From assembly GCF_022458985.1 (NCBI RefSeq), contig NC_061781.1:17019001-17083000 (forward strand): a stretch of DNA of 64,000 nt, given 5' to 3'. Below the pieces are notes generated by a model that saw only the letters and a list, made by a program, of their open reading frames with translations, was not told the DNA's origin and did no database searches. This document shows positions 1,661 to 57,156 of this stretch, piece after piece. Position 1 is the stretch's first letter, and each line of letters starts with the position of its first letter. The stretch is from Mugil cephalus (Eukaryota; Chordata; Actinopteri; Mugiliformes; Mugilidae). The translations under genes were made by a program, and so were the position numbers.

Positions 1661-1843
1661 AAGGCATTTAATCTAATTTCTCAGTTTCTGAAAGAGATCC
1701 AGAGTTCGTCTCTGCATCTCTGACTTGTAGAATGAAATGGAAAAGGGAAAACTCAATTCGTTTTTTTTTTTCACATGTGTGCACACCGGAAACTATATTA
1801 TTTCATGTTACAATAGCACACACATGTGCTGGATGGTTACAGA

Positions 1844-1935
1844 TTGCAGGTGGGAGGTCAGGAAGTGGTGAGTTTATCAGAAGTGAAATGAACCCCGGCT
1901 GTAGCTGCAGCCGAACATTCGAAGAGGTTCGGGTC
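1844..1935 (+). promoter_or_regulatory. 5' flank shared by BTLA-like copies
   Basis: This block, containing GCAGGTGGGAGGTCAGGAAG, lies directly upstream of the first signal-peptide exon and recurs at 7283-7369 upstream of the signal exon of the third copy. It is therefore the ancestral 5' UTR or proximal promoter of the duplicated unit. The middle copy at 2713 lacks it. No TATA box was identified. Confidence 0.4.
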
Positions 1936-2023
1936 ATGAGCATGTTGAGCAAAATGGACACACTGATTTACCTGGTGATATATTGCTGCTTCACATGTGT
2001 GTGCGTGTACGGAGGAGGTGAAG
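1936..2023 (+). pseudogene. BTLA-like copy A: isolated signal-peptide exon
   Basis: ATG at 1936 opens 29 codons and one extra base, ending at a good donor (GAAG|gtaatg). The peptide has a hydrophobic core (LIYLVIYCCFTCVCVY), like the signal exons at 2713 and 7370, which end in the same phase with a similar GEG junction. No full Ig exon follows; only a damaged one is seen at 2669. This is most likely the 5' end of a copy lost by unequal crossing-over. Because the donor is intact and phase 1, it could also serve as an alternative first exon splicing to the Ig exon at 3503. Transcript data would decide. Confidence 0.6.
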
Positions 2024-2621
2024 GTAATGTTTAATGTTCTTTTATGGTTAACGCGATTTTGAACACAGCAGGGAGGGCGTTTTAGAGTCGGCCGAAAGTC
2101 GGAGGAATCTAAACACCCAGTATTAAAGAATGATAATATAATATAAGAGATATAAAATATCTCTAATAAGTAGAGAGAACTAGCAATAAGGCAGACAAAT
2201 CGTTCAAATACCTGTAGAAATTAACACTGAAGAAACTAAATAGTCAACGTTGTAATGAATGTAGTGGACGCTGAGAAACATATATTTTTTAATGTTTTAA
2301 AATAAGCTTTAATATAACAGAATAAAGATAAAATACAATAAAACAGTTCAGGAATTCAGATATTTTTACACACGGTAGATGAGCTTTTATGTCCCGTCTT
2401 CTCGTTGACGCATAAAAGGCTAATTAGTTCAATGTTCATGCTCTGACCCGAAGATGAACGCTATTGAGAATTACTTGAAAAAATGTAATGTGTTGTGTAT
2501 GTATATAATAATGTTGAGTAGAATATTTGTGGCGTTTAAGAATAAGAATTTTACATCTTCTTAAAAGGATGAACAGTTTCTTGTCAAACCAATAATGTTT
2601 GATCTTCAGTGAATTGCACAA

Positions 2622-2706
2622 GATAAAGATTTGATTGAAAACAGATGCATATTTTTCATTCATTTCCGACTTGATTTCTTCGTGTGAAGTAGTTTTCATC
2701 CGCGGA
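2622..2706 (+). pseudogene. BTLA-like copy A: truncated Ig-exon remnant
   Basis: The stretch AAGATTTGATTGA...ACTTGATTTCTTCG, followed by TGTGAAGT, repeats the end of intron 1 and the first bases of the Ig exons at 3503 and 8383. The splice acceptor is ruined (TTCCG where the others have TTCAG), and homology stops near 2706, where the signal exon of the next copy begins within about ten bases. The frame from the remnant stays open into that signal peptide, probably by chance. It reads as a recombination scar. Confidence 0.6.
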
Positions 2707-2712
2707 TGCCTA

Positions 2713-4502
2713 ATGGACAGACTGGGCTACCTGGTGATCTTTCTGTGCTTCACGTGTATCCGCACGTTGGGAACGGGTGAAGGTAAATCTTAAAACATTT
2801 TTTGATTATGAGTTGACTCTTAAGTAGTTCACAAGAGGCTAAAATTTCAATAAGACTGATCATTAGTGAACTTACAGAAGTAAATGGTTCAATAACAGTC
2901 CTGTGAATTTGTGCCTTAGTTATCAGGTAAAAGACCTGGTTTAGTTTCGTTAATACAGTCAGATAGTTGATTATGTTGTACATCATATTCAACATAAACG
3001 TGCATGAACAAAACGAAATTTTGTCTTGTGACATGTAGATGTGTCACTGAGATTACAAAAAGGTTCTCAATAGTTAGAAAGGTGCTGTATCAAAACAAGA
3101 ACATAATTTAAAATCTATGACATAGTTTTGCCACCTTTGTATTCGCTCACCTTTGACAAGTAAGTTATGCTCTGATGCTCTGTGTGTATAAAGTGTTCAC
3201 ACTGTCATCAACGGACTGTGTTAGAAAATATTACCAAGAAAACTATATTACATTAATACTATTAATATGTCTTTTATTTTTGTGTTCACACGCATCTATT
3301 TCATATCTGTTGTTCACTGGCGGGTGCTCTAAGTCATCCTTTAAAAGTGCAACACCGATTGTTGCGTTAATGAAAGAGTCGAACTTTTCTGAAGTTGTTT
3401 TTCACCCGTTCTTGAAATTATACATTTCATCAAACCGAAGAACGTAAATACATGAGACAAAACCAAAGATTTGATTGAACAGATGCCCTTTTTTTTATTC
3501 AGACTTGATTTCTTCATGTGAAGTTGAGTTTTTCGTCCGGAGACGCACAAGATGGTTTACTGCTCCAGGACAAAGTGTGTCACTCAGCTGTCCGGTCCAA
3601 CACTGTGGAGAACGTGTTAACATCACCTGGTGTAAAGTCACTAATATGACCTGTGAGCGGATCAATAAATCAAAGAATGTAGAAATAAGACAGAACCGTG
3701 TTGGGGACGACCAACTGGTCTCATATCTGAGATTCAAAGAGATTTCAGTTTCTGATGGCGGCCTCTACAGATGTGGTTTAATGGGAAAACAAAGTCCTAT
3801 AGGTCATGCCATCTACATCTCAGTTTCAGGTACGAAGCTGTTTTCCTTCATCAACATCAAAATATATATACAATAAATATCTTTTTGTATATGTAATATA
3901 TGTTATCTTTTTTTTAAAGACTCATATGAGAGCGTTAAAACCAACTTTAACTCCGACAATAATCCCGGTAAGAGTCTGTGCAGCATCTGTCTCATATGCT
4001 TCTTAATGGATGCAGATTAAGACCACTGATTTGATTCTCTTTCTCCTTTTGCAGCCGAATCACTGAACGCTGACCCCGGTGAAGCTGCAAAGTGGGTGCC
4101 GTACTTTGCCATCGGCCTCAGTGTGTCTCTCCTGGTCGTTACATCAATGATGATAATCCTGGTGAGGATTCGTGGCCGGAATCGTAAGAACCTTAATATG
4201 TATTTTCAGTTTGGGTAATAGAAATTATATGTCATACACATTTCTCTTCTTTCCACCTAATGAATTATTTTTATTTTTTATTTTATCCTTCAAAACAGAT
4301 CCCGAGAGACGGCCATGTGTCAAACTGTGCAGTGTATGCTGACATCGACCAGTCTGAGATACCCTCAGATACCTGCAGATACTTGCAGATACCTGCACCT
4401 ATTCCTGAACATTTCTCAAACCAAACTTTTATGGCTCCAACATGTTTCAATAATAAGATGAGCCAGTTGTCTTTGTGGATTAGTCATGTGCAAACTCACT
4501 GA
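2713..4502 (+). CDS. BTLA-like Ig receptor, copy B (short tail)
   Basis: Predicted type I membrane receptor of about 255 aa from five exons: 2713-2782 (signal peptide), 3503-3829 (Ig V/I-type domain), 3920-3967 (stalk), 4055-4183 (membrane helix AKWVPYFAIGLSVSLLVVTS) and 4309-4502 (tail). The Ig domain carries the BTLA pattern SCEV, CPVQHC, ITWCK, TCERI and YRCG, so all six BTLA-type cysteines are present. BTLA binds HVEM and inhibits lymphocytes; that role is inferred here. The last acceptor is uncertain: the obvious one (caaaacag, ending 4298) gives the wrong phase, while GAGAG ending 4308 restores it. The tail has VYADI and a repeat-derived RYLQI, but no BTLA-style ITIM/ITSM pair. Its own 5' UTR seems lost to the copy A junction. 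A polyadenylation signal AATAAA lies at 5454. Confidence 0.7.
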
Positions 4503-6340
4503 AAAATGTACTTAGCATTCGTTTTTCTGTCTGAATTAGCAGCATACATGCTTATTTTTGTTTACTAAATGTTCAGTTCTGCAATATAATCTTGTTTTAC
4601 GTGTCATTTTATGTTTCACACTTAAAGTTGGTAAGATTATTTCGCTGAAGGGTGTGACTTTCTGTTCTCACAGCAAACACTTACTTCTGGCAGAGAAATA
4701 CTAGTTCACAAACCCACAAGTGTGGCCTAGTTAACATGTCCAGGAAGTCACAGCGACAGTATGTGTGGTAAGCCCTGCTCTTAATCACACACAGCACAGA
4801 TCGTGTTGTAGTTGGTCAGATAACACAAGAATGCTTTAATTGAACAACAGAAACAAACAAAAAAGCTGTCAAAAAACACGAGGGGGAAGGGGGGGCTTCA
4901 ACAAAAATACTTTGCTCAAGAGAACGTTGTCAGTTGCAGGGCTGGTGCAACAAAAACAACCCCAAAAACTTTGTCGACCGATAAAGTGTTCCACCTTCAC
5001 TGTGACCTTGCTGCTTTACGCTCAACATTTTGTTTGTTGCAGCAGCACCATCTCGGCTGGTTGGGTCTGCCTGGTTGGTGCGGTTGCAGCAATAAAGCTC
5101 AATGCGCAGCCTAGTCACGTGAACCACAAAGGGACAGGTGTTCAAGAGCAGAAGAAGAGAAAACTGGTGATGGAAGAAAGAGCACAGGAAATGCATGCGG
5201 ACAGAGCAGAGCCACAATTCATCATTCAACTGTTACTTCCGAGTAATAATAGAAGAAGTGTGATGTTAAGATTCTCAAATGTGTTTCGTTAAAACATGCT
5301 TGTCCTTTGACTGCTTGCTGAGTACGACTGAAACTGTCCTCAAATAACTTTTTCGCTTTTCAGGTTATGTTAAACTGGGTTTTTGTAGATCATATTTCAT
5401 TATGTTGGATGCATCGTTTATACTTTGGATCACGTTGTATTTGTTACTTGCTTAATAAACAGGCTTGCAATATGCACAACTGAAATGTCTAAATGTACCA
5501 CTCACCAGACCAGGTACACCCCCACTAACAACAAAGCCTCCCAAAGCAGAACATAGTGTTCTTTGCTTATCCGTCAATAAAAATTTAAAAGAGCGCATCG
5601 TGTGGTGCCGGTTTTCTCCACCAGATGGTGCTGTTGGAGAGGTCTGACAGTGATTGAAAACATGCCCGCGGTTGACAAAAGATAAAACGAGCATTAACTT
5701 AGTCCACCTGCTGGTTGCATAGAAAAAAAACAAAGAAAAAAAAAATGAAAAAAAGCAGTCGTCCCGGCTGTGCACCACCTGTTTAAGGAAGAATCCTCAA
5801 GATGAGAAACTAAATCGTATAAATCTTACAACTGAAACAGTATAAAATGAAGCTAGCTGCTTCGCCACGTTGCTCATTCTGTCCTTTAAATGCAACAGGC
5901 ACTTTATTTTCTACACATGCGGTGGGAGTGTCCCACATTTAACTATTTTTTGGAAGCAGGTAATGAAATATCTATCCAGAGCAGCGCTGCAGATAAACAT
6001 TCCTTTTTGTCCTAAAATTATGTTCCTGAGCTAAAGCTACATTTTCAAAGTAGCCCAATGACCGTCTCTGGTTGGCTGGAAGCACAGCTGAGAAAAAAAA
6101 AAAAAAAAATCAGTTAGCCCTCCATGGCCGCACTCTATCAATGAATCAGCAGAAATTCTCATAGATGTTCTGTTACTGGAACTTTCCACTGTGAAACTAA
6201 ATGGGGCTGAATGTTAGATAACAGCCTGCTGGAACGACACCTTGAGACCTTTTCATTTTGAATTTGTACATTTTGTTGTTTAACGTGTAGATGAGATAGA
6301 AGGGGCCTATATATGTATCTGTATTTACTAATGTGCATGG
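4503..6340 (+). other. 3' UTR and spacer after BTLA-like copy B
   Basis: AATAAA at 5454-5459 is a plausible polyadenylation signal for copy B, which would give a 3' UTR of nearly 1 kb. A 150-codon open frame at 4840-5292 lies within it but shows no recognisable domain or splice context. The remainder is unique-looking spacer with short A-runs. Confidence 0.4.
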
Positions 6341-6348
6341 TTGTGTAC

Positions 6349-6350
<2 letters not shown>

Positions 6351-6391
<41 letters not shown>

Positions 6392-6400
6392 TGTGTGTGT
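6351..6400. repeat. (GT)n microsatellite
   Basis: Nearly perfect GT dinucleotide run of about 50 bases with one CT interruption at 6391. Antisense frames reading poly His-Thr here are artefacts of the repeat. Confidence 0.95.
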
Positions 6401-6544
6401 TGTACGTTCTTGTAAGTAAGTGCTTTCTTTTTCCATGAATGAGAGGAATCCAGTGGGAGGGGATATGCATATGTATGTTTATTTATTATAGATTCAATAT
6501 AATGCAGATGCCTGTAACAAAGAAAACCAAAATAAGAACTTATT

Positions 6545-7060
6545 ATAAAAAAAGATGAGAAACTAAACCCACATCTACCATCGTCATACCTATTAGATAT
6601 TATTAGTTGTTTAGTAGGTAGGTGTTAAACATTTTCCCCACAAGACACAACATCTGCTTGTCATTGTTCCTTATAGTTTTCAGGAACTTTTAAGATAAAG
6701 ATAAATTTAAAAGTAGCTGAAAAAAAAAAGTTTATTACAAAAATAGCTGAGAAACTAAACCCACGTCTACTATCTTCATACCTATTAGATATTATTAGTT
6801 GTTTAGTAGGTAGGTGTTAAACATTTTCCCCACAAGACACAACATCTGGTTGTCATTGTTTCTTATAGTTTTCCGGAGCTTTTAAGATGAAGCTAAATTT
6901 AAAAGTAGCTGGAAAAAAAAAAGTTTATTACAAAAATAGCTGAGAAACTAAACCCACGTCTACTATCACCATAGATACTATTAGTGACGGGTGTTAAACA
7001 TTTTGGCCCAAGACACAACATCTGCCTGTCATTGGTTCTTATAGTTCCCAGGAGCTGTAC
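6545..7060. repeat. ~192-bp tandem repeat, three units
   Basis: The marker GAGAAACTAAACCCA recurs at 6557, 6749 and 6942, spacings of 192 and 193 bases. The units also share TATTAGATATTATTAGTTG, AGGTGTTAAACATTTT and AGACACAACATCTG. Units one and two are very similar; unit three carries an internal deletion. The array lies between the second and third BTLA-like copies. Confidence 0.9.
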
Positions 7061-7282
7061 CTATGCCACAAAAGGGCTGATGAACCAGGAACTGCGGTTG
7101 CTGAGATGTTACAAAGTTGATCTCTGGTTCACCCAACGAAAGAAATGCCAGTAACTTCACATCTCGTGTTCTGTAATACAGATGACCTACAGAAACAAAA
7201 TGCCCCATATAATTTTTTCACATGCGGGAAACTACGTTCAGTCGTGACACGCTGGAATACACACGTGTGGGTCTCATATACA

Positions 7283-7369
7283 TCGCAGGTGGGAGGTCAG
7301 GAAGTGGTGAGCTTGTCATAAGTGAGCAGCAACTACTGTAGATCATTTGAAGACTTTCAGGTCCTGAGC
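7283..7369 (+). promoter_or_regulatory. 5' flank of BTLA-like copy C
   Basis: Copy of the block at 1844-1935 immediately upstream of the start codon at 7370. This suggests that copies A and C keep the original 5' UTR/promoter while copy B does not. Confidence 0.4.
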
Positions 7370-9740
7370 ATGTCGAGCCTTATGGACAGACTGAGCTACC
7401 TGGTGATCTTTCTGTGCTTCACGTGTATCCGCACGTCGGGAACGGGCGAAGGTAAACCTTAAAACATTCTTGAATTAGTGAGGTGGCTTTCAGCAGAGCA
7501 CAGAGGGAAAGTTTTAATAGACTGGAGTCATTAGATGAACTGAAGTAAATGGTTACAATGAACAGTCACATGAATGTCGTGGCACTTACTTAAGTGAAAG
7601 GTAAGAAGACACGAGGCTCAGTGACAAGGAAATGAATGTCTGTACATCTATGAAGCTATAAAACAGTCATATAAAAGGATTTTATTTATAGTGACATTCA
7701 ACACTAAGTCAGTTTCCTGTGATCTTTGTGTTTCCTTGTTTCAGTACACATGCTACCTGAGGCAGATCAGAGGTGATGGGTGTTACTTTAGTTTTAATAT
7801 CAGTTCAGATAGTTTACATTATGTTGGTACATGTCATTATTTCAACATGGAACGTGGCATGAAGCAAAACACTGAACTCCCAGTTTGTGCGCTTGTCGAG
7901 CGAACGTGTAGATGTGTCACTGAGATTACAAAAAGGTAGTCTCAATAGTTAGAAAGGCGCCGTATCAAAACAAGAACATAATTTAAAATCTATGACATAG
8001 TTTTGCCACCTTTGTATTCGCTCACCTTTGACAAGTTATGCTCTGATGCGCTGTGTGTACAAAGTGTTCACACTGTCATCAGCGGACCGTGTTAGAAATT
8101 ATTACCAAGAAAACTATACAATAAAATGAGCACTATTAATATGTCTTTCATTTTTGTGTTCACACGCATCTATTTCATATCTGTTGTTCACTGGCGGGTG
8201 CTCTAAGTCATCCTTTAAAAGTGCAACACCGTTTGTTGCACTAATGAAAGAGTTGAACTTTTCTGAAGCTTTTCTTGAAATAATAAATGTTATTTCATCA
8301 AACCGAAGACAAAAACTAAAGTGAATTGCATGAGACAAAACTAAAGATTTGATTGAACAGATGCCCTTTTTTTTAATTTCAGACTTGATTTCTTCATGTG
8401 AAGTTGAGATTTTCGTCCGGAGACGCACAACATGGTTTACTGCTCCAGGACAAAGTGTGTCACTCAGCTGTCCGGTCCAACACTGTGGAGAACGTGTTAA
8501 CATCACCTGGTGTAAAGTCACTAATATGACCTGTGAGCGGATCAATAAATCAAAGAATGTAGAAATAAGACAGAACCGTGTTGGGGACGACCAACTGGTC
8601 TCATATCTGAGATTCAAAGAGATTTCAGTTTCTGATGGCGGCCTCTACAGATGTGGTTTAATGGGAAAACAAAGTCCTATAGGTCATGCCATCAACATCT
8701 CAGTTTCAGGTACAAAGCTGTTTTTCTTCATCAGCATCAAAATATATATACTGTAAATATCTTTTTGTATATGTAATATATGTTATCTTTTTTTTTAAAG
8801 ACTCATATGAGAGTGTTAAAACCAACTTTAACTCCGACAATAATCCCGGTAAGAGTCTGTGCAGCATCTGTCTCATGTGCTTCTTAATGGATGCAGACTC
8901 AGACCACTGATTTGATTCTCTTTCTCCTTTTGCAGCCGAATCACTGAGCGCTGACCCTGGCGGAGCTGCAAAGTGGGTGCCGTACTTTGTCATCTGCTTC
9001 AGCGTAATTCTCCTGGTTGCCACACTGTCACTGATAGTCATGCTGAGGTTTCATAAGTGGAATCGTAAGAGCATTAATTAATACCTTTTATCAGTTTCTA
9101 GGATTATAGAAAACCTTTAGATTTTTTTTCTCACCTACAACAATTTGTGTCCCTCACAGAAAAGCTGACCTGCAATAGCACGAAGGGAAAGGTAAAGTTT
9201 AACCATGTGGTAAAAAAACAAACAAAAAAAAAACATTCTCACTTCACTCATTTTGTTTGTTCAATCAGTTTGTAAAAGCTTTTAAAGAACGATGAGTTGT
9301 TTCTTTAGCTCTTTAACTCATCGGCCAGATTTTGCTTCGTGTGTATGGGGCCAACTGTTTTCTATCTTAATGACTGATAGATCTCGTTTTATATTTGCAT
9401 TGAGGAATAAAGTGTTTGTTTTGTTTGACTTCTTCATTCTTATTCTGCTTTGTCACAGGAGACGTCCACTAAGATGATACCAGACCTCCCCAGGTGGAGC
9501 GCTCACCCCTCTCCCGTCCCGCAGACGCACTTATCCGTCCCAAACGACATCTACTTTTCGAGCGCTGCAGGAACCCCTTCCTTCGCCGCCGCTGCCAAAA
9601 CGCAAATGAAAGGTCAAGGGTCAGAGTGCGAGGTGTACGCCAGCATCATGCTCAGGCCGGCTGGAATCCCGCATATTTATCCTACGATAAACACGATGAA
9701 GCAAGCTAAAGGCACGGAGTACACTGCCGTCAATGTCTGA
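7370..9740 (+). CDS. btla: BTLA-like inhibitory Ig receptor, copy C
   Basis: Complete BTLA-like receptor, about 299 aa (human BTLA is 289). Exons: 7370-7451 signal peptide, 8383-8709 Ig domain, 8801-8848 stalk, 8936-9064 membrane helix (VPYFVICFSVILLVATLSLIVML), 9160-9191 short linker, 9459-9740 cytoplasmic tail; all junction phases agree. The Ig domain has the BTLA signature ITWCK and six matching cysteines. The tail has four tyrosines: NDIYFSS, EVYASIM, HIYPTI and a terminal TEYTAV. The second and last match in position and sequence the two SHP-recruiting tyrosines of BTLA (VYASL, TEYASI), and TEYTAV fits the ITSM pattern TxYxxV. Role (HVEM binding, inhibition of lymphocytes) is from the family. 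CD160 ancestry is an alternative given the neighbours. Start: the first of two in-frame ATGs (7370, 7382). AATAAA lies at 10047. Confidence 0.8.
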
Positions 9741-12666
9741 TTTGTTAAGTCACGCTTATGTAATGAAAAGCGTAAGGTGGTGTCACGGAACAGGCTGAAA
9801 GCAAACATTCAACCACAGTGCCGAAAAGGGGAGCGTGGGAGGCTTGTGGTCAGGCAGATGAAATGTGTGTCGTCCTGAGCGGCAAGTTTAGTCTCTCACG
9901 GTCAGATTTGTTCCAGGCGCTGCAGCTTATTATTGTTGATTTATTCTTTAAATTTTTATTTTTCTTCTTCTTGTATTTGCATTTACGTGCCTTTTTGAAG
10001 TGTATTTAAGTCATTGTGAATACTTATCTATGGTTATGTCTGGAAAAATAAACCTGTGTTGATGTGCGACGTTGGAAATATCATGCTATTTAAAATGCAA
10101 GTGAATTTAATGACTCAGTTGACGTTATTAAAAAGAAATCTCTTAAAATCAGAAACAGAGATGACTGATAACATCTGTTTTATCTCACATCTCATCGCCT
10201 CATTGTTTCTTGCCACACGGCCCACATCAGTGGGCTTCAGCTCAAATGCGCAGGAGGATGTGTGGTAAGATCCTTCATCAGATATGATTCACATGAGCAC
10301 AGTCTGCAGCCTGGGCAGTGACTTTATCATTATCTGCATCTTTCTATTCGCACCACACTAAAGGCAAATGCATGTAGGAGCAGCATTGGTTGGCTATTTA
10401 AATTAACAAATCAGATTTTCCTTCAGCTTATGGCCTTGCTGTGGGCTAGGTTAAAAGTCACAGTTGTCCGATCTATTGTGAGTTTATGAAGCAGAGCAAG
10501 TTGATACCAGGCAAATTCAATGTTCTGCCGGGACAGTTTTAGACATGTACCATGGCAGCAGCAGCCCCCAAGCAGGATGCAGCCTGACGCAGGCACACAC
10601 ACAAAAAACAAGAAAAACAGCACAAGGTGTTGACCTGGCCTCCACTAACTCTTAATACAAAGTTTTGCTGTTTTTGATTATCCCAGACAGACGTTGCTTT
10701 GATGCAGTTTCAATGCTTGGCTGTGACTGTGTTGCTAATCAAATAAATTCTGCACGCACAGCCATTATTTCTCGCAAATTCGTAACCAAAACGTCAAGAA
10801 ATGCTCTTGGGAGATGTGACCTGACCTCCGCGTTTCTCATAGCAAACGCACTGGAATGCGTTCTCGGGGGAGGAAGGTGAAGAGTTGATACGTAGCCACG
10901 TGTGATGTGGGGGCATTGTGTGAAATAAGTCGGGGATTCGCTTTTCTAACTGGAAATTCTTCATCTCAACAGGATGTCATGTCCTACACACGACTAACAC
11001 GCTGACCTTCTACACCGTCTCTCTCACAAAGACAAACACTCAAATCGGTAATTGTGCATTTTTTTTCCCCGTGCGCGGCGGGCAGAGCCTTCGTTCAGAC
11101 AGCAAAGAGACTGAAAATGCGGCGGGTTGTATGGAGGCAGTCGGACTTGTATGCAATTTAAAAAAAAAAAAAAAAAAAAAATTGGTGCAGATGGAGGGAA
11201 GCTGAACGCTTGTGGTCCTGCTGATTCTAGCCTGAAAGCACAACGCATGAACGGAGGCGACATTCACTTTTAGGAGAGGGGATTCTTAACAGGCATGTTT
11301 TAATTTGATCAAAAGCAACAAAACACAGAGCAGGTTCGCTTTGTTTGGACTTCAACTGAATTCTTTTGCTACTGCTCAATAATCCTCGAGTGGTCCTCTA
11401 GCATTCAAACGTTAAACCACACAGTTATACCACCTCAATACAGGATATCCTTCCCACCCACCTTTACGTGAGGTGCTTTAACTTTATGCACATAAAGATA
11501 TGCTTAGCTCTGGCTGTGGCGGCGATGAATAGACATGCAGACACACGGTCTTACACATGACATGTAGGCGGACTTTAAGACATATCTGAGACATGTGTGG
11601 TTTGAAGTTGAAAGTGTGACCTCAGGCTGAAACATTGCGATGTGAAAACCTTCTTCAAGAATGTCGAAGGAATATGGTTTTGGTATATATATATAAATAT
11701 ATTTATTATATTCATAACCAGTCGAATAATTTCTTGACTTTTTAATGTCCTGTCGGTTAAAGGACTCACACATGATGACACATATGTGTGATGTGGTTTG
11801 TATTTGTCATCTGACGCAGTTTGTATTTCTACCATAAGCGAGCGATGCATTTGATAACAAAGTGCACAAAATGACATGTGCAGTAGGCTTTTTGTGTGTG
11901 TGTGTGTGTGTGTGTGTAAGGTATGTGATTTTATTTTTGTCTGCAGTGTTCAAAAATAAGCTGCTCTGCTTAGAATAATATGAAAAAAAAAAAACAAAGC
12001 ATGTGGCAGCCAGGTTCTGCATACCAGAAAGGACTCTGACAGTTTCTTGGATTCAGTTAAAAAGCACAAGGCTGAGCGAAAAAAAAAAAAAAAAAAGAGC
12101 AGCAAGAGGGCAACACTGATCCAGAGGTGCATTTTTTTAAAAATATTTTTATTATTCTGTTTGTTGCAATTATTACATTAACTTTACATACACGGTTGGG
12201 TCATAATTCATCTTGCTAGAGTCCTTTCCTGGACTCTCTACAGGGCTGTATGCTACAACAGATTTCAAAAACTTCTTGAAACCAATTTTAAATGCATTAT
12301 AATGTAAGGTGTGTCATATTTTTTTTTTACGATAAAGTAACTGACAGATGCTTTGACACATAGTTTTAATTCAACACGGAACTAACACTTTAAGAGGCCC
12401 CTCGCACACATGCAAACACAACCTAACCTACGACCTACCTACACTGCAGCGTACCACTTTGAGTCAGACGACGATATTTAAACGAGCAGAGCGACTCGTG
12501 CGATGCGCAGCCCTTGAGTCAGATAGTGCCCGGCTGCACGGCGCAGACGGAGACAGAGACACGCATTCCTTTCTGGGGGCACCAGAAATGTTTCGGCGTT
12601 GCTTCTTTCGCGCGACTGATTCAAGCCATCTGACCGTGGAACTGAACCGTTTGAAAATACGCACAG

Positions 12667-14181: not shown

Positions 14182-17100
14182 AGCTTTTTTACAGGTAAAT
14201 GGTCTGAAGCATTTGCTCAGCAAGTGCATGAGTTCTGCCTGTAAGTGTAAACGCACACTCACCTTCTTTGCGCAAAAAACACTTCCAAAGGCAGAAGCAA
14301 AGGGACATAACCAGCAGAGCGGCTACGGTGGTGACTGATATCAGGATGGTGAGAGCTGTCCCAACTAGAAGGAAACACAGCAGAGGCGTGGTCAGCAGTT
14401 TTAGGTGCTGGTATCTGAGGGCAGGGAGAGACCTGCTGGTCTGGACACTGCTTTCCTATCATGAACCATGACTGATTCAATTTCAGATTTAATTCACGGT
14501 GTTAGTGTCAGACTTATGTAATGCGTGCACTCTTGACCCACTGGATTACATTAAAACACAGACCAACCAGTGAACGGTTGACATCTCCTGTCTGCGAATA
14601 GTTAGAGGAATAGTTTGACAATTTGGAAAAAAACATGTTTATTAACTTTATTAATATGAAGCTGAATAGATCGTGTTTGTGTAATGTGCACAAAAATCCC
14701 ACAAGAAGGAGTTTCTAGGACTAGCCAAATGAAACTGTGCAGGTTTTCCTACAGATTAAACAAAAACAGTCGCTGTTTATTTGGTTTGGTGGAGCCACGC
14801 TAGCTGTATCTCCCTGTTACTGTTCTTTATCAAGACCCCCGGCCAAACCACCTCCCTGCGGCTTCCGCATTCATCACAGGATTCGTCACACCCAAAAACA
14901 TTCATCCCATACAACATTACTGCAAAAGAAGCAGCTGTATTTTGTTGAACCCCTTGAAATGACTCTTTTACATTTTTTTGCTATATATGAGCAAATTTTC
15001 CTTCAAAACCATGAGGTGGCATCTTGTGAATCCATCTTAGCCAAGTGCCTCATTCTTCTCGATGAGATAAAAGACGATCAATGAGGATGATGGGAGACAT
15101 ATTTCCCAGAGTGTGTGCTTTTAACCAAAACTGATTTTTGTCCTGGGATATAAGAAGAGGCTCGTGCACTCTTAAAAGTGTATTTGTGTAGCAGTTGAAG
15201 TAACGTAATGTTTTGCCTGAGTCTCACTCAGTTTTTTGCTTTAGTCATGGCTTTTGTGTGTGCTTTGTGGTTTACATCAAGTTGAAATTACACTTTGTTT
15301 GATTAACCTGCCATTCTCATTCAAACCAAAGTGTGTGAGTTAAGTTTCCTTTGGTTACATTTTGTGCCTCTGACACCATTAAGGTTTTTTTTCTGATTTT
15401 TTCAGAAAGACGTTTGGCCAAATATAATTTTTCCTTTTTTTTTCTTTTTTTTTTGTCCTGAAAATCACAGATAAGTCAATTTATTTGGTTTAAATGAATT
15501 TCTCCCTCTCCCTAGATTAATATATTGAACATTATCTTCAAACACACTTCACACACACACGCTTTTCACAATTGATCCTTTGGGCCAAGAAATGGGAGCA
15601 CATGGAGCATGTACATTGAACTTCTCTGTATCTGACTCAAATCAATTGTGTTAATCTAACAAACTTGCAAACTTAATTAAATTGCATGGTACCAATTGAA
15701 GTAACCTTTTTTAAGATGGTCCAACAATTTTATTTTTTCAGTGTGTGACGTACAATGCAAACTACTAAACTCAGAGCTCATTGTTTAGCCGATGTTAAAA
15801 ATGAATCTGCACTTTGTTCTCGGTGTAGTCTGCCTTACTGGTTGGACCTCTGTCAAGGTTAATGAAGGTATACCGAAGGGTTAGCAAGGACGATCACGAT
15901 GTTACTGAAAACTCTGCGGCACAGATTCAAATGGACCCAAAGTTCCACTAATACCAACTCACTTTTAGTGTTCATGGACACAGCGATCGGCGACTCGAGC
16001 CCTTTGTGGTGAACCAAGCATTTGATGGACACGTCTTTCAGCAGCCCGGATTGGACAGTGAGCGTGCTGATGACCAGAGTGGTCCCGTCGCCCTGGGGGA
16101 GGAGCGCGGTCCTAGGGGGGCCCATGGTGCGGTTGTCCCTCTCCACGTTCCACACGATCTCCGCGGGGGGCCGAGACAAAGAGGTGCAGTTGGCCTCGAT
16201 CACACCGGGGGAAGTGGTTTTGTAGCTCACCTGAGGTTTTGGCAGGACTGGGAGGAATAAACAGAGACATTATGGAAGAGGTATCCTCACACATAATTAA
16301 ACGCTCTTATACTGCTCAATGTACAGATGACATGTTTACTGAAATGCACTGTGAGCAGAACACACAATTCAAAAAGCTCTGGGGAAAGTGAAATATGTAA
16401 AGTATGCTGCGGTGGTGCGGGCATATGAAACTGATTATTGTAATCCACAAAATGGCCCAAACTCAATTTTATGAGTTTCTAGCTGTGTATCACGCACGTG
16501 TCTTTGGTTAAATTGCTAAAATGATACCTAGGATAAAACCTTGAAACCTTTGGATCAGCCACGACATGTGAATTCCTGCAGTCTTGAAATCCATAAGTAA
16601 ATATCTGGCTGTTTTCAATTCCCCGTTCTCTGGGCTCAGCGAGGAATGCGATTCCACAGCAACCGAGAACATTTGTGTTGGCAGTAACACGTTTATCCAC
16701 AGATATTTGGGCCTCGTCGGTCTCAGCATCTTCCCAGGGTCGTAGGTGATGAAATTCACTCTAGCGCGGCTCAGGTTAATGTAAGATTTTAGGGAGGATC
16801 AAAAGAAAGTGGTCTGACAAGAAAGTGGAACAGGATTTTACAAATGAGCGAAAAGCTAGTGTGAAATTTGCAAGAACTGTGGCAATGTTTTAGATTTTCA
16901 GATTTAAAATGTCCCAATTTATTCTTATATTTGTTGTATTTTCTATTTTTCAGTTCATGCCTACTGCTGTCGGCTAGGCTAGTTAGCTGGTGTTTTCTTA
17001 TTGATTGCTAGCTGACTGCTAGCCTGCTGGTTGAGTTTTTAGTTTGACTGGGTTTCTAAGTATGTTTTGCCTCGGATCTTGGCACAAGGGATTGTAACAT

Positions 17101-20100
17101 CTCATCCTGTGTAATAATGAATGTGAAAATATTACACTTTACTAGAATATGAAAGTATAAAACCAAAGCTAGATTTAACTCCAATTCAACCAACTGCATC
17201 ATTTAAATGCTGCTTATTAAACAAAGCAGATTTACTTTTTATTATTTGGCCATAATAATACGATACATGGTATATTATAAGTACAGTGTCCATAAAGTTG
17301 GAATAATGCTATGTTCACACACATTCCTCTTTACTATCCCAATTCATACTAATCAAATTGTCACCATCATTTCATGAGAAGCAGTAAGAAATATTTTATT
17401 CCAACTTTATGAGTGTGTGATTCCTACTTTACAACTGCGTACTATCATTTAAGTATCTCCACAGCCGTTTGTGCTCGAGTCATGAATACTTCTTCTGCTG
17501 CTGGCGTTTTTTAGGAGATAAATTGTCTGAAATTGTAAAATTACTTGAAACGCGATCACACCATGCATGCACTCTTGAACCTGGTGACCGCTTCGGCTGT
17601 GGTATGAAAACGGTGTTTACAGAAGAATTTTAAGGATATATTATTAAAAAAAAGTCAAAGTACTCGTGTAAGTTATGTTGTTTAAATTAAAGTTTCAAAC
17701 AGTCTCCTATTAATGACTAGAGTAATATCCTTACGTGTGTATTGTCATAACTGAGCTTCGACAGTGTGCTTGAAAGTGGGAGTGAAAGTGGGAGTAAAAA
17801 GGGGGTGACATCACGTCATGTTCAGAGGTTGAATGGGGGGCAGAAGCGTGCTGGCATCAATTAGCAGCAAGAAAAGAAAAAAAAACATTAATTCCAATCA
17901 TGCCTCTGGGCTAGGGACACCTACTGTAGTGTACAGTTCAATTTCAAACAAAAGCGCATCTGTTTCTTGAGATAACTGCGAGAGAAAGGGAGCGGGAGAA
18001 AAAGTGGAAAGGCAAACGGGAGCAGCGAGAGAGGGACAAAGCACAGAGGGAATCACTGTCTGCCTCAAACACTGACACAGTCATGCATCAGGACCTCGCT
18101 CCCTGCCTCCATCATTCTTTCGAATGGTCCATTCTTCGCATGGGCACACTTGTTCTGTGTCTGCGTGTTAACAAGTCCGACAGCCTAGCCCGTGCTCCTT
18201 CATCATGAAAGCAATAAATAAAATAATAATCCAGCGGCCGCGGGGAAGAAAAGATCAACATTCCTGTGTAGGTCCCAGAGGTACATGTCTTTGCTTTGTC
18301 TGTCCATGATGAATTTTCTTGCACTCCTACAGAAACTTCCTTTTTAAGCCCCATATTCCCAGCTCCTAGGTCTGCTATAGGACAAATTCACTTACAGCTA
18401 CAGCCACACGAAAATAAGCTTCTGAAAAGAGTGTATTATCAACAACAACAACACATGCATTTATAGCTTTAACGATGGAGGTGCAGTGTAGATCAGTCTT
18501 TTGGAACAGTTTGATGGACTGCCTTGAAATTTGACATGGAATTCGTCGGATAATCTGGTATAAACAATCCTTGCCCTCGCAGTAAGACTTCTAATGACTT
18601 TATTGGTCCCCTGACTTTTCATCTTGTGCAACCAACGTGGCCAATTTTTTGCTTATCCAGCACCAAACCCAGTATGACTCAAACGCTGACAAGTGAAATT
18701 TGAGGCTAAAGGTTAGACTTAGACATTTCAGTGGGATAATGCGAACCTTTGATTGTTGAATGTGTTCCCACAGATAATATTTCTTTGTCAAACATGTCTG
18801 GGGAAAACACCAGCAGCAAATCTGCTAAAGCCTCATCTTAATAATCCAAACTAAGAATGTATGTTTGCACTTTATGAGCACTTGGGATTCTCTTACTCTG
18901 GACTTGCCGGCCTGACTAGTGGACACAAAGTGCCCCAATCTTTGCACCAAAAAAAATAATACAATATCATCCCCAGTTGTAGCTGATAGGGCAAAACACA
19001 TGTTTACCATAGGTGGAGAGGCAAACCACGGAGCTCTTCGGCCCGTCGGGTATTGTGTCGTATACGCAGGTGTAGCAGCCCTCGTCCTGGATGGCGACGG
19101 GCTGGATGGTGAGCTTACTCTCCGACAGGGAGGCGGCGAGCCAGACTCTTCCCTGGTAAGGTGGCTCGATCATGGGGTCGCTCCGCTTTGCGAAGGAGGC
19201 CACCTCTGTGGAGTCTCCTTCGGCGGACGTGTGCCTCCATGCAATCTGCTGCACTTTTTCTGGCAAACCATAGGAACACGTGAGGGAGGCCTTCTTGCCG
19301 CTCACCGCTGTTTTGTTGCTTTCAGCGGTGACTTGAGCTAGACATAAAAAAAAAAAAAAATAAATAAAAAAACATCAACCAGTGAAAGAAAAGCACGGGG
19401 AGTTATAGGGTGCAAACAGGACAATGTTAATATCTAAAATTATGAGGCGCCCATACAGAAACCAGTCACTGGAATCTGCACCAGCTGTTTTTGGTTAGCA
19501 GACTGGGCCCTCCTTCTCAAGCTGCTTCACAGCACTTTATTAACATGACTGGCTGAGCCTCAACAGGCTCATCAACTTGTCTTCAGAGGTTAGCAACAGG
19601 CAGGCATCCAAAATCAGTCCAGCAGCAAAACACCAACTGGGAAAGAAATGATAGATTATTCATATAAGGGTATTTTATGATTCTCATGTGAGCTGCTAGC
19701 TAAAACAACTTCATACGAAACAAGAAAACAAAACACAAATTTTTAAACTCAAAAAGAGAAAACAGATGTGGACGAATGATGCTGTCAAACAGAGGAGCGG
19801 TCATCTCGCCTGCTTCTGGATACCTGAGCTCATTGGTTTGTCTCTGAGGAGAGATCTGTCTCCCTTCAGTGTGTCACCAGGGTCATTGCTCATCCTGGAT
19901 TTAGGTTTGGGCCTCTCCCAGCCTGTTCACGACCTTTCTAACTGTATCAAAATTGGCAGTCTCTCCCACATGTTAATATTTTTATAGTAATATTTGCGCT
20001 ACTTTTTTAGTTTTTTTTGCTATACGTAGCACATAGCACATGGTTTTTGACCCTTGAATACTACCATTTGTAACAGCAGCTATTGGAGAACCAGAATTTT

Positions 20101-20926
20101 TCGATTTACACTGTCTAGAATCAAATCACGCTTTATGTTACAGAAATCATAAAGAATACATTAAATGGATTTTTGTCCCATTTCCTACAGGAAATAGTTT
20201 TTTAAGTGCATGCTGTACTTATTAAAAAGTAGTTTTAAAATGTTTCTATATTGATGTACAGCATCAATACTCCCATATGCCTGTTTATTGATAAATTAAG
20301 CTTTATTTGTAGTCCAATCTGCATCTGAAACTGTGTGTATTGTGTGATCTGTCATATGTGGTTGGCATGTTAGACACTAATGCAAACTATCACATATTCA
20401 TTTCTCTCAACCGCATTCATTAAGGTCGATGTATAACATTAATGGTTGTACTCACAGGTAACAAAGAGACATGTCTGTCCTTGCTTTGAACCAGAAGGAT
20501 GCAGGTCAAAGATGCAGGTGTAGCAGCCTTCATCCCGGAAGCTCACCCTGCGAATGGTGATGGCCGAGGTGTCCTTCGGGGAGGGGGCGACCTCCACGTG
20601 CTGCTGTCCACTCACGCTGTCCCTATTGCCGGGCTGGTAGGTCACCAGGGTCTGGTTCTGGACATCCAGCCAACGCACCTGCCTCAGAGTTTCGCCTCGG
20701 TCCCTCGAAACCACACAGTTGAGCGTGAAAGGCTTGTCCACTGGAGCTTCCAGACGCGCCGGTGCCGTTACTCTGCCTGAAACATCCACCAGTGTGTTAA
20801 TCCCAGTTTGACCCTTTCCTTATATTTGCTTGAGTTGGCAGACTCATACTCACACTGGAGTCGTCCCACCAAAAGTAGGAGTAAACACACCTGCAGACCT
20901 TTCCTAAAGGAGACCTGAATCTTCAT
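13533..20926 (-). CDS. cd200: CD200 (OX-2)-like glycoprotein, V-V-C form
   Basis: Type I surface glycoprotein of about 372 aa, six exons on the minus strand: 20926-20854 signal peptide ([15 protein letters not shown]), 20776-20456 first V-type Ig domain, 19337-19008 second V-type domain, 16247-15963 C-type domain, 14364-14263 membrane helix, 13540-13533 last two codons and TAA. All internal junctions are phase 1. The V domains carry the CD200-type motif DEGCYTC; the C domain has [11 protein letters not shown] and NGT-like segments resembling CD200. CD200 binds CD200R on myeloid cells and dampens them; its own tail does not signal, consistent with the tail CFLRKEAD. Two V domains instead of one is unusual against mammals. 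An upstream in-frame ATG at 20968 adds 14 residues but has a weaker context. The last exon rests on one acceptor (TTTCTCTTTCAG) and is the least certain part. Confidence 0.8.
14153..14180. repeat. (AT)n microsatellite
   Basis: Perfect TA run just downstream of the membrane-helix exon, in the last intron of the cd200-like gene. Confidence 0.9.
16248..19007 (-). other. Large intron of the cd200-like gene
   Basis: 2.8 kb between the second V and the C-type exon. It includes an A/G-rich stretch near 17930-18060. I find no further Ig-type exon, and the flanking exons join in frame without one. Confidence 0.5.
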
Positions 20927-25500: not shown

Positions 25501-26625
25501 CCACTATAAACATAGTGTTTGATCGAGTTGGAAAGACGGATCCAGTGACGAGGGGTATTGAGATTACAGTGAACTACTTGGGCATCCAGTTTGATGTGAG
25601 ACCCACACTTAAACACACACACACACAAAGACGTAGTTTTATTTGTAGATCTCATCCAAACCCACTAACCCTAACCCAAGTTGAACCCGACCCTAACCTC
25701 ATAACGCAAGTGTCCATATTTAAATTAAAACAAACCCAGTTTCCATAATGTGTCTGTGTAAATGTGTCCCCACAACACAAGTAGCCCAAGTGCACACACA
25801 CACACACACACACACACTTGCTGTATTAAAGTCACCTGGCATCTTGTAAAGGTAATTGCTGGCCCATTATCATCTCTTCGTGTTATCGCTGCAGTAAACT
25901 GGGTCATGATCACTTTTAATCTTCTCTCACACACACAATTATCTAACTGAGTTCTTACAGCTCACACAGCATAGTGTCAGAATGGGTATTAATATGAAAT
26001 CTGTTTTCATCTTTCCACACATTAGAATTAAATTTTCTGCCATTTTGCTTTTCTTATCAACGTCTTCTCTTTCTCCCTGTCCCAGGTTAAGTTTTGGTCT
26101 CAACACATCTCTTTTATCTTAGTGGGTATAATAATCGTTACGTCCATCCGTGGCTTACTCATCACCCTCACCAAGGTAAAACCATCACATGTTACGTAAA
26201 CTTTCTTGTTTTTACCTGTACGCCCTGTAATTGGAATTTGATATCCCGCTTTTCTGTTAGTTCTTCTATGCGATATCAAGCAGCAAATCCTCCAACGTCA
26301 TTGTGCTCGTCCTCGCTCAGATCATGGTGAGTGTGTTTGCCTGGAGCTTGTGTTTTAAACATAGAGCGCGGCCAGCAAACAATCAAGGACTGAATCTGAA
26401 TTTGTCTCAATCTACCAGGGGATGTATTTTGTGTCGTCTGTGCTGCTGATGCGAATGAGCATGCCGCTGGAGTATCGCTCCATCGTGTCAGAGGTTCTGG
26501 GTGAGCTGCAGTTCAACTTCTACCACCGCTGGTTTGACGTCATCTTCCTGGTCAGCGCCCTCTCCAGCATCCTCTTCCTTTATCTCGCACACAAGCAATC
26601 TCCAGAGAAACACATGGCCCTCTGA
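22583..26625 (+). CDS. gpr89: Golgi pH regulator (GPHR/GPR89)
   Basis: Multipass membrane protein of the Golgi/ER, an anion channel needed to keep the Golgi lumen acidic. Fourteen exons: 22583-22624, 23113-23172, 23271-23374, 23454-23560, 23673-23774, 23874-23994, 24105-24185, 24278-24387, 24502-24590, 25269-25361, 25500-25595, 26086-26175, 26261-26326, 26419-26625. They sum to 455 codons plus stop, the human length. Start [14 protein letters not shown] and end [13 protein letters not shown] match the family, as do the stretches [20 protein letters not shown] and [20 protein letters not shown]. Hydrophobic helices flank a central charged segment (about residues 205-285). Splice sites are canonical; the acceptor before 24278 (GTGAAG) is pyrimidine-poor. 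No defects were seen. The gene converges with pdzk1. Confidence 0.97.
24775..25085. mobile_element. Non-autonomous interspersed repeat in gpr89 intron 9
   Basis: The end CATAGACTGTATAAATATGG is the reverse-complement relative of the end near 48495 (CCATAGTATATAAACAGTC). Both belong to a short interspersed family seen widely in fish, recalled rather than searched. No coding capacity. Confidence 0.45.
25795..25816. repeat. (AC)n microsatellite
   Basis: Perfect AC run within gpr89 intron 11. Confidence 0.9.
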
Positions 26626-27542: not shown

Positions 27543-30500
27543 TCAGAACCTTATGTCGAAGCTGTCCTGAGATGAAGATGATGATGTTGATGAAGCCTAC
27601 AAGACAGAAAAACAAAGAATATTAAAGACGCACACACTTTTTTTTTTTTAGGATGCATTTAACTTAAGACTTTACTGAATATGCAGCAGGTATGTGGTCA
27701 TATGTTAACAAGGCCAAAAGTCTACAGCTTAACTAGCAGTGGGTTAAGGTTATCAGCTTGTTCAGATGTGCTTGTTGATAAACACTAATGTCATGATAAC
27801 ATGTTGCTGTATTGACAGATCTATGACTTATCCTTTGTACAATCTTAGTTTCGTTTGTTAGCATGAGAAGCCTAGCCACAGAACAGCTGAAGCTAATGGG
27901 AATGTCTTGGCAGTATTGGCAGAATATTCGACTTTAACGTTTGAAACTGAAACTGAATGTCAAATTACTACAATTATTTACATTATTATTACTATGATTA
28001 TAATATTATGCGGTAATTTGTCTTTATCCGAAGATCGCAAGTTAATTATTCTTATTAAATGTATCTTATTATCTTGACAAAACAAAATCTCCAAGACAGT
28101 GAGATATTTCATCACAAGAAAATGACTTTTGTTTTACACACGATCACACGTTCACTAATTATGGTGAACATAAAAAAAATAAATAAAAAAATAAAAAATG
28201 GCGGCCAGGTTCCTTTCCCTCCCAATTTCGGCCTTCAACATCTACCTCATGATTATTGGGAAGGATTCATAAAAGCAGGGCTGTTTCACTCTGATGTCTC
28301 AAACTAACCCTTTGTTCTCGTGTTATAACAAATTAACTCATTATTATAATTAAATGGTAATTAAAAGGCAATGGCAAACTTGGCCATTTTTGGCTTCCAT
28401 ACATTCCATGTGAGCGCAGCGTAAAAAATGTCACCCGAGAACCTCTAAAAACCACAACTCACCCTCCGTCTTTCTGGTTCAGGCGGAGTATCAGGCCTTG
28501 TCTCTCTCTTGCTGCTGCGTGTCTTGCGGACTTGAGCGTAGGTCGGTTCCTCAAGGAGCAGCCGCGTGATGGGCACATCCTTGGCTTTGAGCTTTTCGTA
28601 CACGCTCCTTTTAGCCACCAGCATCTCCAGAGAGCTGCCGCTTCTGCGGATCATTTCCACCACCTCTTCGTGGCTGCTCTTCTCCACGTTCACGCCGTTC
28701 ACCTCCACCACCATGTCGTCGTTCTCCATGCCGGCCTTGTCGGCTGCTCCACCCTTCACCACCTGAAACGAGGTATGTCTTGCAGCATGGGTTTGGCCTG
28801 TTAATGATGAAGTGACAGCGTGCGTTCCCGTAACCCTTACCTCTCTGATGTGCTGACCACACAATCCCTGGATGCCGTTCAGGTGAAAGCCGAAACCAGC
28901 TGCGGTCTTCTCCATCCTGCACAGTTTAGGCTTGAGCTCCTCGTCACTCTTCTGAACAGGCGTGGTTGGACGCGGAACGTTTAAAGTGACTGCTTCTATG
29001 TAGCTGGGAGGTGAGTAGGAATCCTTGTTCTCCTCCCAGAAAAGCATGGGAGACACTTTCCCCTGTGAGGAACACGACATGATATTATCTGGACCATCTG
29101 GAAGACACGCTGAAGACCGAGAGTAGCGCACGCTGGCTCACCTTTTTGTACATCTGGTCAGTTTTATCGTCCACCACTAGGAGGCAGCAATTCTGGCCAC
29201 TCTTCCTGACCATGTCTACCACCTGCTCATGAGTGCCACCATCCACCTCCTTGCCGTCCACAGCCACCAATCTGTCCTTGTCCTCCAGACCTGCTCTATA
29301 TGCCGGGCTGCCTCTGTCTATATCCCTGATGAAGTGTCCTGCACAGAGTCAAGGAACAGATTATCCAAACACTGCCTTCTCCCTCACAGTATAAGGTGTC
29401 TATATATGAAATGATAGTGGCCTTGCCTGATTTTTTGGGATCCTCTCTGAGCAGGAAGCCGTATCCATCAGATCCTCTGCTCATTTCGATGATGCGTGGC
29501 GCGAGAGGGAGGTGCTTGGTCGTGGCTAACCACGATCCTATCTTGGCTCGCTTTTTCTGGTAGGACTTGTCGGTTTTCTCATCAACCAGCAGGAACATGA
29601 CGGTGTTGCCCCCCCGTTGGATCGCTTCCACCACTTGGTCGTGTGTGGCGTTCTCCACGTTCTCTCCGTTGACCTCGACCAAGCGGTCGTTGACTTTCAC
29701 TCCTGCTCTCTCTGCTACGCTTCCTGAGAAGACCTCTATCATGTAGGTACCTTTCTCTCCTAGAGTGGAAAATATGGAAGATATGAAATAATCACATTTT
29801 CAGACCAGCAATATTTAAAACCCACGGGCAGTTAATAAAGCCTTTAGGAAGTTGTTATTGACGTCATTTATAGATCTTGTAAATAATAATAATAATGCAT
29901 TGGTTTTGTAGACGCTTTATGTTGAATACATTATTCATCTACTCACACAGTCACACCTCGGTGGTCATAAACTACCTCAGTAGTCACAGCCGCCCTAGGG
30001 CTGACTGACGGAAACACGCCTCTCTGACCACCACCAACATCAATAACTCACAATGATACACCAGTGGGTTAACAAGGTGGGTTACGTGTCTTGCCCAAGG
30101 ACACAACGGACAGACTAGGGGGTAGGGCAGAATCGAACCTTTCGGTTACCTCCTGCCGCCCAACTGTAAACTGTAAGAATGAGGTTTTTGATTGCCAGGT
30201 TGTTAAAGATATCTTTGACTGCTGTAAAAGCAACTCAGGTAAAACATATTTATCAATCCTTGAAGATTGACAGAAGACAGAAAACTGCAAGAACACAGGA
30301 CAGTTCCTGTGTTCTTGCAGTTTTCTGTCTGCAGTCATAAAATGTTAATATGTCATTAATGAAAGCTTTAGAAGAGTAGAATAGTGCTCTGATTCACATA
30401 TAATTTAGCAAGTATGAATGCTCCAGATTCGCGGTAGATTAATTACACGAGGGAAGTGGTCAAATATGACACCAAACTTATGAATTAAGAAGTTCAATAA

Positions 30501-56900: not shown

Positions 56901-57156
56901 TTACACCCTCTCGGGCGTACCGATCGCTTTCATCCATTTGCTGTGCTATACCTCTGCTTGCGTCAACCCACTTATTTACTGCTTCATGAACACCCGCTTC
57001 CGCAAAGCTCTGTTTGTCACCTTCTCGTGCTGCGCCGCGCCCTGCCACCGCCGCCGCCGCCGCGGGCTGAGGGACAACGAGGAGGACGTTATGGCAACCG
57101 GGGCGTCCATGTCCAAGTTCAGCTACACCACAGTCAGCACGATGGGAGCCTGCTGA
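38904..57156 (+). CDS. cckbr: Cholecystokinin receptor, type B-like
   Basis: Class A G-protein-coupled receptor for cholecystokinin/gastrin, signalling through Gq and calcium in gut and brain. Five exons: 38904-39066, 49278-49532, 51858-52119, 53685-53812, 56615-57156; 449 aa (human CCKBR 447). The extracellular N-terminus has four N-glycosylation sequons (N7, N25, N29, N41). Helix hallmarks: LAFSD in TM2, ERY after TM3, LCWMP in TM6, NPLIY in TM7; cysteines after TM7 suggest palmitoylation. IERYSAIC, the segment ending QTWYVLLLLVLF and the C-terminus SYTTVSTMGAC point to CCKBR, while NLIPSILKDFIFG recalls CCKAR. Teleosts keep two CCKBR paralogues and I cannot say which this is. The third loop holds DGDGCYVNV, conserved in CCK receptors. 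The junctions all agree in phase. Confidence 0.95.
40504..40528. repeat. Poly-C tract (about 25 C)
   Basis: Uninterrupted C run in a C/A-rich patch; on the minus strand it is a poly-G tract. Length is likely variable and error-prone in sequencing. Confidence 0.9.
44535..44876. mobile_element. Non-autonomous hAT-like element, 342 bp
   Basis: Exact 8-bp target duplication CTTTAGGA at 44527-44534 and 44877-44884. The ends GGGGGTTTTCAACG and GTTGAAGACCTATG are imperfect inverted repeats. Sequence is shared in opposite orientation with the element at 34517, making it a shortened relative. Confidence 0.88.
47761..47780. repeat. (TG)n microsatellite
   Basis: Short TG run in the first coding intron of cckbr. 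Confidence 0.85.
48005..48515. mobile_element. Short interspersed element (MITE-like)
   Basis: Contains GAGTGGCCACTTGAGGC, CCTCATGTTAAAAAGTCCAA, AACATGTTTACAG, AACATGGCGACC and the end CCATAGTATATAAACAGTC, in the order of a familiar dispersed fish repeat. Related to the copy at 24775. No coding capacity; boundaries approximate. Confidence 0.5.
48545..48670 (+). mobile_element. LINE-type 3' end fragment
   Basis: GAATGCCTCAGAAAGAGTTGG, then ATTCCTTGCTTACCCTGTTG, CCACTCCGACCC and a final GGATGAATGGATGG fit the decayed 3' end of a fish LINE, where short GGATG-type tails are usual. The family assignment is from memory. Confidence 0.5.
49533..51857 (+). other. Second coding intron of cckbr
   Basis: 2.3 kb of AT-rich sequence without recognisable exon or repeat family. 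The flanking exons join in frame within transmembrane helix 3. Confidence 0.5.
52897..53648. mobile_element. MITE-like element in cckbr intron 3
   Basis: Begins TTAAAGGACCTGTGTGTGA and ends ACAATGTTCCTTTAA, giving short inverted ends (TTAAAGGA/TCCTTTAA). GTGCCACCTGGTGG near 52921 is also typical of this dispersed fish repeat. It ends about 35 bases before exon 4, close to the splice acceptor. Confidence 0.6.
53813..56614 (+). other. Fourth coding intron of cckbr
   Basis: 2.8 kb without coding signal. It includes a region at 55130-55330 with repeated TTGCGTGT-like words and AT-rich stretches. It interrupts the third intracellular loop. Confidence 0.5.

Follow-up and report, generated by a model that had tools for sequence, protein, structure and literature searches.

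What keeps one part of two neighbouring receptor genes almost identical while their other parts differ? A first-pass annotation of a 64,000-nucleotide stretch of DNA (the window) described two BTLA-like genes, here units B and C, with near-identical ectodomains and unrelated tails, and took this for the layout of paired immune receptors that see the same ligand and signal differently. Our analysis upholds the layout itself, two near-identical ectodomains on tandem genes with two different tails, but not the opposed signalling by which classic paired receptors are defined, and near-identity turns out to be no direct evidence that a ligand is shared.

A cluster of BTLA-like units

Three BTLA units, A, B and C, lie on the forward strand near the left end of the window (Table 1), with B and C about 5 kb apart on that strand. 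Judging from gene content, they probably form a tandem cluster of BTLA genes in a fish. A tblastn search of the window with the Ig exons (E up to 10) returned only weak, scattered matches besides these three. Between B and C, positions 6529-6980 hold a 192-base tandem repeat of two copies (91% alike) and a partial third.

Table 1. Features of the three BTLA units, in window positions.
Feature	Position	Strand	Remark
Unit A 5' flank	1843..1935	+	matches C flank (7282 onward); promoter role inferred from position
Unit A exon 1	1936..2023	+	encodes signal peptide MSMLSKMDTLIYLV...; phase 1 donor; probably serves B as first exon
Unit A truncated Ig-exon remnant and intron 1 end	2608..2709	+	joined to B exon 1
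Unit B exon 1, signal peptide	2713..2782	+	3 mismatches to C exon 1
Putative gene-conversion block in B	3061..4108	+	partner in C ends about 8989
B Ig exon	3503..3829	+	PDB sequence matches to BTLA
B stalk exon	3920..3967	+	translation, splice dinucleotides
B membrane exon	4055..4183	+	donor common to C after 4183; alternative donor after 4161
B candidate last exon	4299..4502	+	frame from 4299 holds AVYADI at 4329; open 67 codons; predicted
Unit C 5' flank	7282..7369	+	match to unit A; putative promoter
C exon 1, signal peptide	7370..7451	+	translation
C Ig exon	8383..8709	+	extra N-glycosylation sequon NIS, residue 104 of exon translation
C stalk exon	8801..8848	+	translation
C membrane exon	8936..9064	+	translation
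C small tail exon, 32 bases	9160..9191	+	phase 1 to 0; translation
C last exon	9459..9740	+	EVYASI at 9630, TEYTAV at 9714, stop 9738-9740

The BTLA-like identity assigned earlier is borne out, as BTLA gave the best matches for both Ig exons. Against PDB sequences, the Ig exon of C matched 54 distinct sequences at E up to 1; the top five were all BTLA (E 7e-13 to 1.2e-9), and none of the 54 was named CD160. For the Ig exon of B, five of the six sequences at E up to 1e-5 were BTLA, and these were the best five. All six cysteines of the human BTLA chain (SC, CPVxxC, WCK, TC, YRC), which in BTLA form three disulfides, align in the Ig domain. Pfam recognised an Ig domain in both exons with four matches each, and only the V-set match of C passed the curated cut-off (26.6, cut-off 26). 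A single-sequence structure prediction for the C Ig exon reached a mean pLDDT of only 41 and was set aside.

Unit C (7282-9740) is complete, reading as one open protein of 299 residues across six exons, and in it we confirmed the two tail tyrosines reported earlier, EVYASIM and TEYTAV. EVYASI is ITIM-like without being a strict ITIM, and TEYTAV is ITSM-like, fitting the consensus TxYxxV; the C tail had no Pfam match. Of the ITIM and ITSM tyrosines that mark a BTLA tail, C carries these two look-alikes, and B carries a tyrosine only in some splice readings. The helix of B, inspected by eye in translation, has no charged residue, as had been claimed, and the helix of C has none either. Since neither helix is charged, pairing of the DAP12 or activating type is unsupported, and a partner that engages a charged helix residue is unlikely for B or C. 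The charged helix residue through which the activating member of a paired activating and inhibitory set usually signals was found in neither gene.

A young block between older flanks

The ectodomains are as similar as first described. The Ig exons of B and C align without gaps and differ at 3 of 327 bases, all three changes being nonsynonymous (F33I, R40T and Y128N from B to C, numbered from the methionine of MDRL); so few changes make the lack of synonymous ones uninformative. Y128N creates the sequon NIS in C, which B does not have. The stalk exons differ by a single synonymous base in 48. The membrane exons do differ at about a fifth of positions, as noted before (30 of 128 aligned sites), and these differences are unevenly spread: 4 fall in the first 54 sites (4055-4108) versus 26 in the next 74 (4109-4182; Fisher P 0.0002). 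The best single breakpoint within 3969-4183 is 4109, and none of 2000 permutations did as well.

This step is the right edge of a block of about 1.05 kb (3061-4108 in B) in which 44 of 1033 sites differ and which spans the 3' part of intron 1 and all of introns 2 and 3. The introns within it are likewise similar, with 36 mismatches in 603 sites: 28/427 in the 3' part of intron 1 (3061-3502), 5/90 in intron 2 and 3/86 in intron 3. Immediately to the left (2940-3060), 34 of 121 aligned sites differ (28%) with many gap columns, and to the right, at the start of intron 4, 23 of 48 differ (48%). A two-edge fit placed the tract at 3026-4112 with 46 mismatches in 1072 sites; this fit, run over 2830-4300 with 30 permutations, takes in barely alignable stretches and overstates the contrast, a fault from which the test within 3969-4183 is free. 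Nei-Gojobori (NG86) estimates also change across the edge, from dN 0.012 and dS 0 in the Ig exon to 0.47 for both in the 3' part of the membrane exon. Within the block, dS is 0.13 for the stalk and 0.19 for the first part of the membrane exon, versus 0 for the Ig exon, from few sites each.

A young block flanked on both sides by old homologous sequence is the footprint expected of gene conversion, and the near-identity of B and C looks like just such a footprint between older duplicates. Because the introns are also alike and the edge falls inside an exon, similarity alone does not establish that a shared ligand was selected for. The same block may have arisen by recent duplication of part of the gene and subsequent exchange, a course that this locus alone does not tell apart from conversion. 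With A as outgroup, the sites gave no direction for the conversion: those joining A with B versus A with C numbered 1 and 1 in exon 1, 0 and 4 in the Ig stump, and 18 and 15 in intron 1.

Relative to the block introns, the Ig exon has diverged less (3/327 versus 36/603, P 0.0001), and it contains an identical run of 262 bases; selection, or a smaller conversion of later date, could account for its younger look. Between B and C, exon 1 makes a second young patch, with 3 mismatches, which ends some 30 bases past its donor.

The head of gene B

The first-pass annotation had B begin at 2713, which is probably wrong, as a remnant of A lies directly to its left and the flank shared by A and C is missing there. 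The flank and first exon of A (1843-2027) match the corresponding part of C (7282-7455) at 72% identity (blastn, E 8e-25), and their alignment includes a stretch of 27 identical bases (GCAGG...GTGAG). At E up to 1e-4, A and C alone share this promoter flank, and exon 1 of B gave no blastn match to it. Left of exon 1 of B, 2608-2702 instead matches 8320-8419, which in C runs from the last part of intron 1 into the Ig exon, at 78%; a shorter blastn match pairs 2608-2690 with 8320-8404 at 80%, and local alignment extends the similarity to 2608-2709 and 8320-8426. In this Ig remnant of A the acceptor AG reads CG.

Because the remnant adjoins exon 1 of B, that exon sits on a deletion junction. A and B, we infer, have become a single gene that carries the head of A on the body of B, and the flank and exon 1 of A (1843-2023) probably drive B. 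Exon 1 of A reads open, and its donor (GAAG/GTAATG) is predicted to splice in phase with the B Ig exon. An unrelated promoter may serve B instead.

The tail of gene B

That the two tails share nothing evident is a fair description at the DNA level: blastn of 4184-5700 against 9065-10700 gave just two matches, of 13 bases (E 0.087) and 15 bases (E 0.31). At the protein level a 12-residue segment of B (GHVSNCAVYADI) weakly resembles one of C (GQGSECEVYASI), with a score reached by 4.5% and 3.8% of 2000 shuffles, uncorrected for its being one of six segments; at the DNA level the match is equally marginal (5%). We regard this likeness as a hint only.

What B encodes after its helix depends on the donor. 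Splicing to 4299 from the donor after 4183, which C also has, would give ...RIRGRNHPERRPCVKLCSVC and a stop 14 residues past the membrane exon, with no tyrosine. A second donor lies 22 bases upstream, after 4161 (CTG/GTGAGG), where C has CTGAGG and hence no GT; joined to 4299, it is predicted to read IPRDGHVSNCAVYADIDQSE... for 67 codons in the frame that holds AVYADI. The upstream donor scores 5.31, a value reached by 0.5% of the 3921 GT sites in the window, versus 0.51 (8%) for the shared donor, on a crude scale built from a frequency table, by which the predicted donor of the C Ig exon itself scores only -0.14. The shared donor also enters the AVYADI frame if the acceptor after 4308 is used.

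Little weight attaches to this frame being open, as the exon has another frame that stays open for 53 codons. The phase fits: the last exon of C is read in phase 0 by way of the 32-base exon, and B, where no such exon is seen, would fit with the AVYADI frame, which is also in phase 0. A blastn search downstream of B gave no counterpart of the 32-base exon, though blastn is insensitive to so short and diverged an exon. AVYADI weakly resembles the EVYASI of C, with alanine rather than glutamate at pY-2; by the ITIM consensus, both fall short of a strict ITIM. Of the different short tail first ascribed to B, the difference from C holds, and shortness is one of several donor-dependent readings, among them one with an ITIM-like tyrosine.

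Alternative readings of the pair

These features of its head and tail could also mean that B is a decaying pseudogene that has lost its promoter and small tail exon and whose tail frame is broken, the clean Ig exon being a recent conversion from C. Such decay would explain an exon 1 that has no A/C flank match and abuts a gene remnant, a shared donor that reads 14 residues to a stop, and, within the sensitivity of blastn, the missing 32-base exon. However, exons 1 to 4 of B are all open with intact GT and AG splice dinucleotides, the 3' part of the membrane exon still encodes an open hydrophobic helix despite its 26 differences in 74 sites, and exon 1 of A has an open frame in the matching phase. 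We consider decay unlikely, although it is the strongest competitor to a functional B.

Less probable again is a single complex gene with alternative cassettes, in which exon 1 of A or C would join either Ig exon and the membrane exon of B would splice to the tail of C. Every splice junction up to the membrane exon is in phase 1, which leaves these combinations in frame, and the units are close together on one strand; C nevertheless has a promoter flank of its own, and AATAAA signals at 5091, 5454 and 5576 come between B and C.

Two further readings are very improbable and were rejected on the divergence evidence: purifying selection alone, acting on a common ligand face without conversion, would suit an Ig exon less diverged than the block introns but is contradicted by introns that differ by 6% in the block versus 28% in mid-intron 1 and 48% at the start of intron 4, by the zero synonymous divergence of the Ig exon and by an edge within one exon, and two alleles of one gene assembled in tandem would yield high identity in the block but not a 3' membrane exon a third diverged or an intron 4 and tails that cannot be aligned.

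Neighbouring genes

BTLA adjoins CD200 in mammals. In the window, one or more putatively CD200-like genes occupy 14192-20819 on the reverse strand. Here a V-type Ig exon at 18967-19371 (-) matches OX-2/CD200 best (E 4.8e-9) and nectin-3 next (1.6e-8). For a second V-type Ig exon at 20439-20816 (-) and a C-type Ig exon at 15859-16266 (-), the latter below Pfam cut-offs, no clear family, and not CD200, stood out among the matches listed (60 of 208 in one of the two listings). A reverse-strand frame at 14192-14455 has a hydrophobic stretch and no Pfam match.

Farther right, an exon at 26365-26622 (+) matches Pfam ABA_GPCR and is presumably GPR89-like. PDZ exons lie at 28445-29134 and 29299-29796 (-), the second matching PDZ domain-containing protein 1 best (E 1.7e-20). 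In human, CD160, which also binds HVEM, has PDZK1 and GPR89 close by, and this locus may therefore help to explain how BTLA and CD160 arose. An exon at 51785-52132 (+) has cholecystokinin receptor type A as its best match (E 5.5e-33), and a Pfam 7tm_1 match at 56581-57153 (+) may belong to that gene as a later exon.

Discussion

We think it rather probable that these are tandem BTLA genes in which C is of the inhibitory type and B is an older duplicate with a converted ectodomain, the fused head of A and weaker signalling. C would be a complete inhibitory-type BTLA, with a signal peptide, one Ig domain, a stalk, an uncharged helix and a tail bearing ITIM-like and ITSM-like motifs. The ectodomain block of B, from inside intron 1 to the start of the membrane exon, would have been homogenised with that of C by conversion in either direction; the helix and tail outside the block would have stayed old, and a deletion would have joined the body of B to A's promoter flank and signal exon.

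B would present a nearly identical face to the same TNFRSF14-like partner and signal more weakly than C. With the donor after 4161 it would do so through one ITIM-like tyrosine (AVYADI), and with that after 4183 it would be a tail-poor decoy; it would compete with C or act as a weaker brake. B is most likely a second, weak inhibitory or decoy BTLA, as far as its sequence goes. In published accounts, BTLA binds its ligand, is phosphorylated on tyrosine and then recruits SHP-1 and SHP-2 (PMC8043046, PMC12151841), a course that C would be expected to follow. HVEM is described as pairing with the G0 strand of BTLA; the open-access literature yielded no list of the BTLA residues that touch HVEM.

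A stronger version of this account is possible but doubtful: conversion would repeatedly renew one face on two BTLAs of unequal strength, B would run on the promoter of A, and the residual differences would tune binding. Those differences would be two residues early in the Ig domain and the glycosylation site found only in C, and BTLA would in this lineage constitute a self-made inhibitor/decoy pair. If B is expressed, two BTLAs compete for one ligand at different inhibitory strength, a natural test of checkpoint tuning. More generally, conversion can lie behind ectodomains that are nearly identical within a receptor cluster, and identity alone does not amount to selection for shared binding.

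No account of this locus was among the matches listed in the open-access literature; subscription papers, including Bernard et al. 2007, lay outside that search. The latter, entitled 'Multiple BTLAs', reportedly deals with more than one BTLA gene per animal, judging from its title, and to that extent describes the same situation. The locus resembles human BTLA in its six-cysteine Ig domain, stalk and uncharged helix, in the ITIM/ITSM-like tyrosines of the C tail and in the CD200-like Ig exon nearby. It is unlike human BTLA (CD272), a single gene at chromosome 3q13.2 according to a paper that also mentions zebrafish BTLA-HVEM work (PMC8043046), in having tandem copies, one with a different tail. 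A parallel comes from primate CD300A and CD300C, in which gene conversion keeps the Ig domains alike and the signalling parts differ (PMC12447643), as is probable for B and C; CD300C is activating and has a charged residue in its helix, whereas B and C both lack one. For the most part, the B/C pair is an ordinary example of an evolutionary pattern that is already known.
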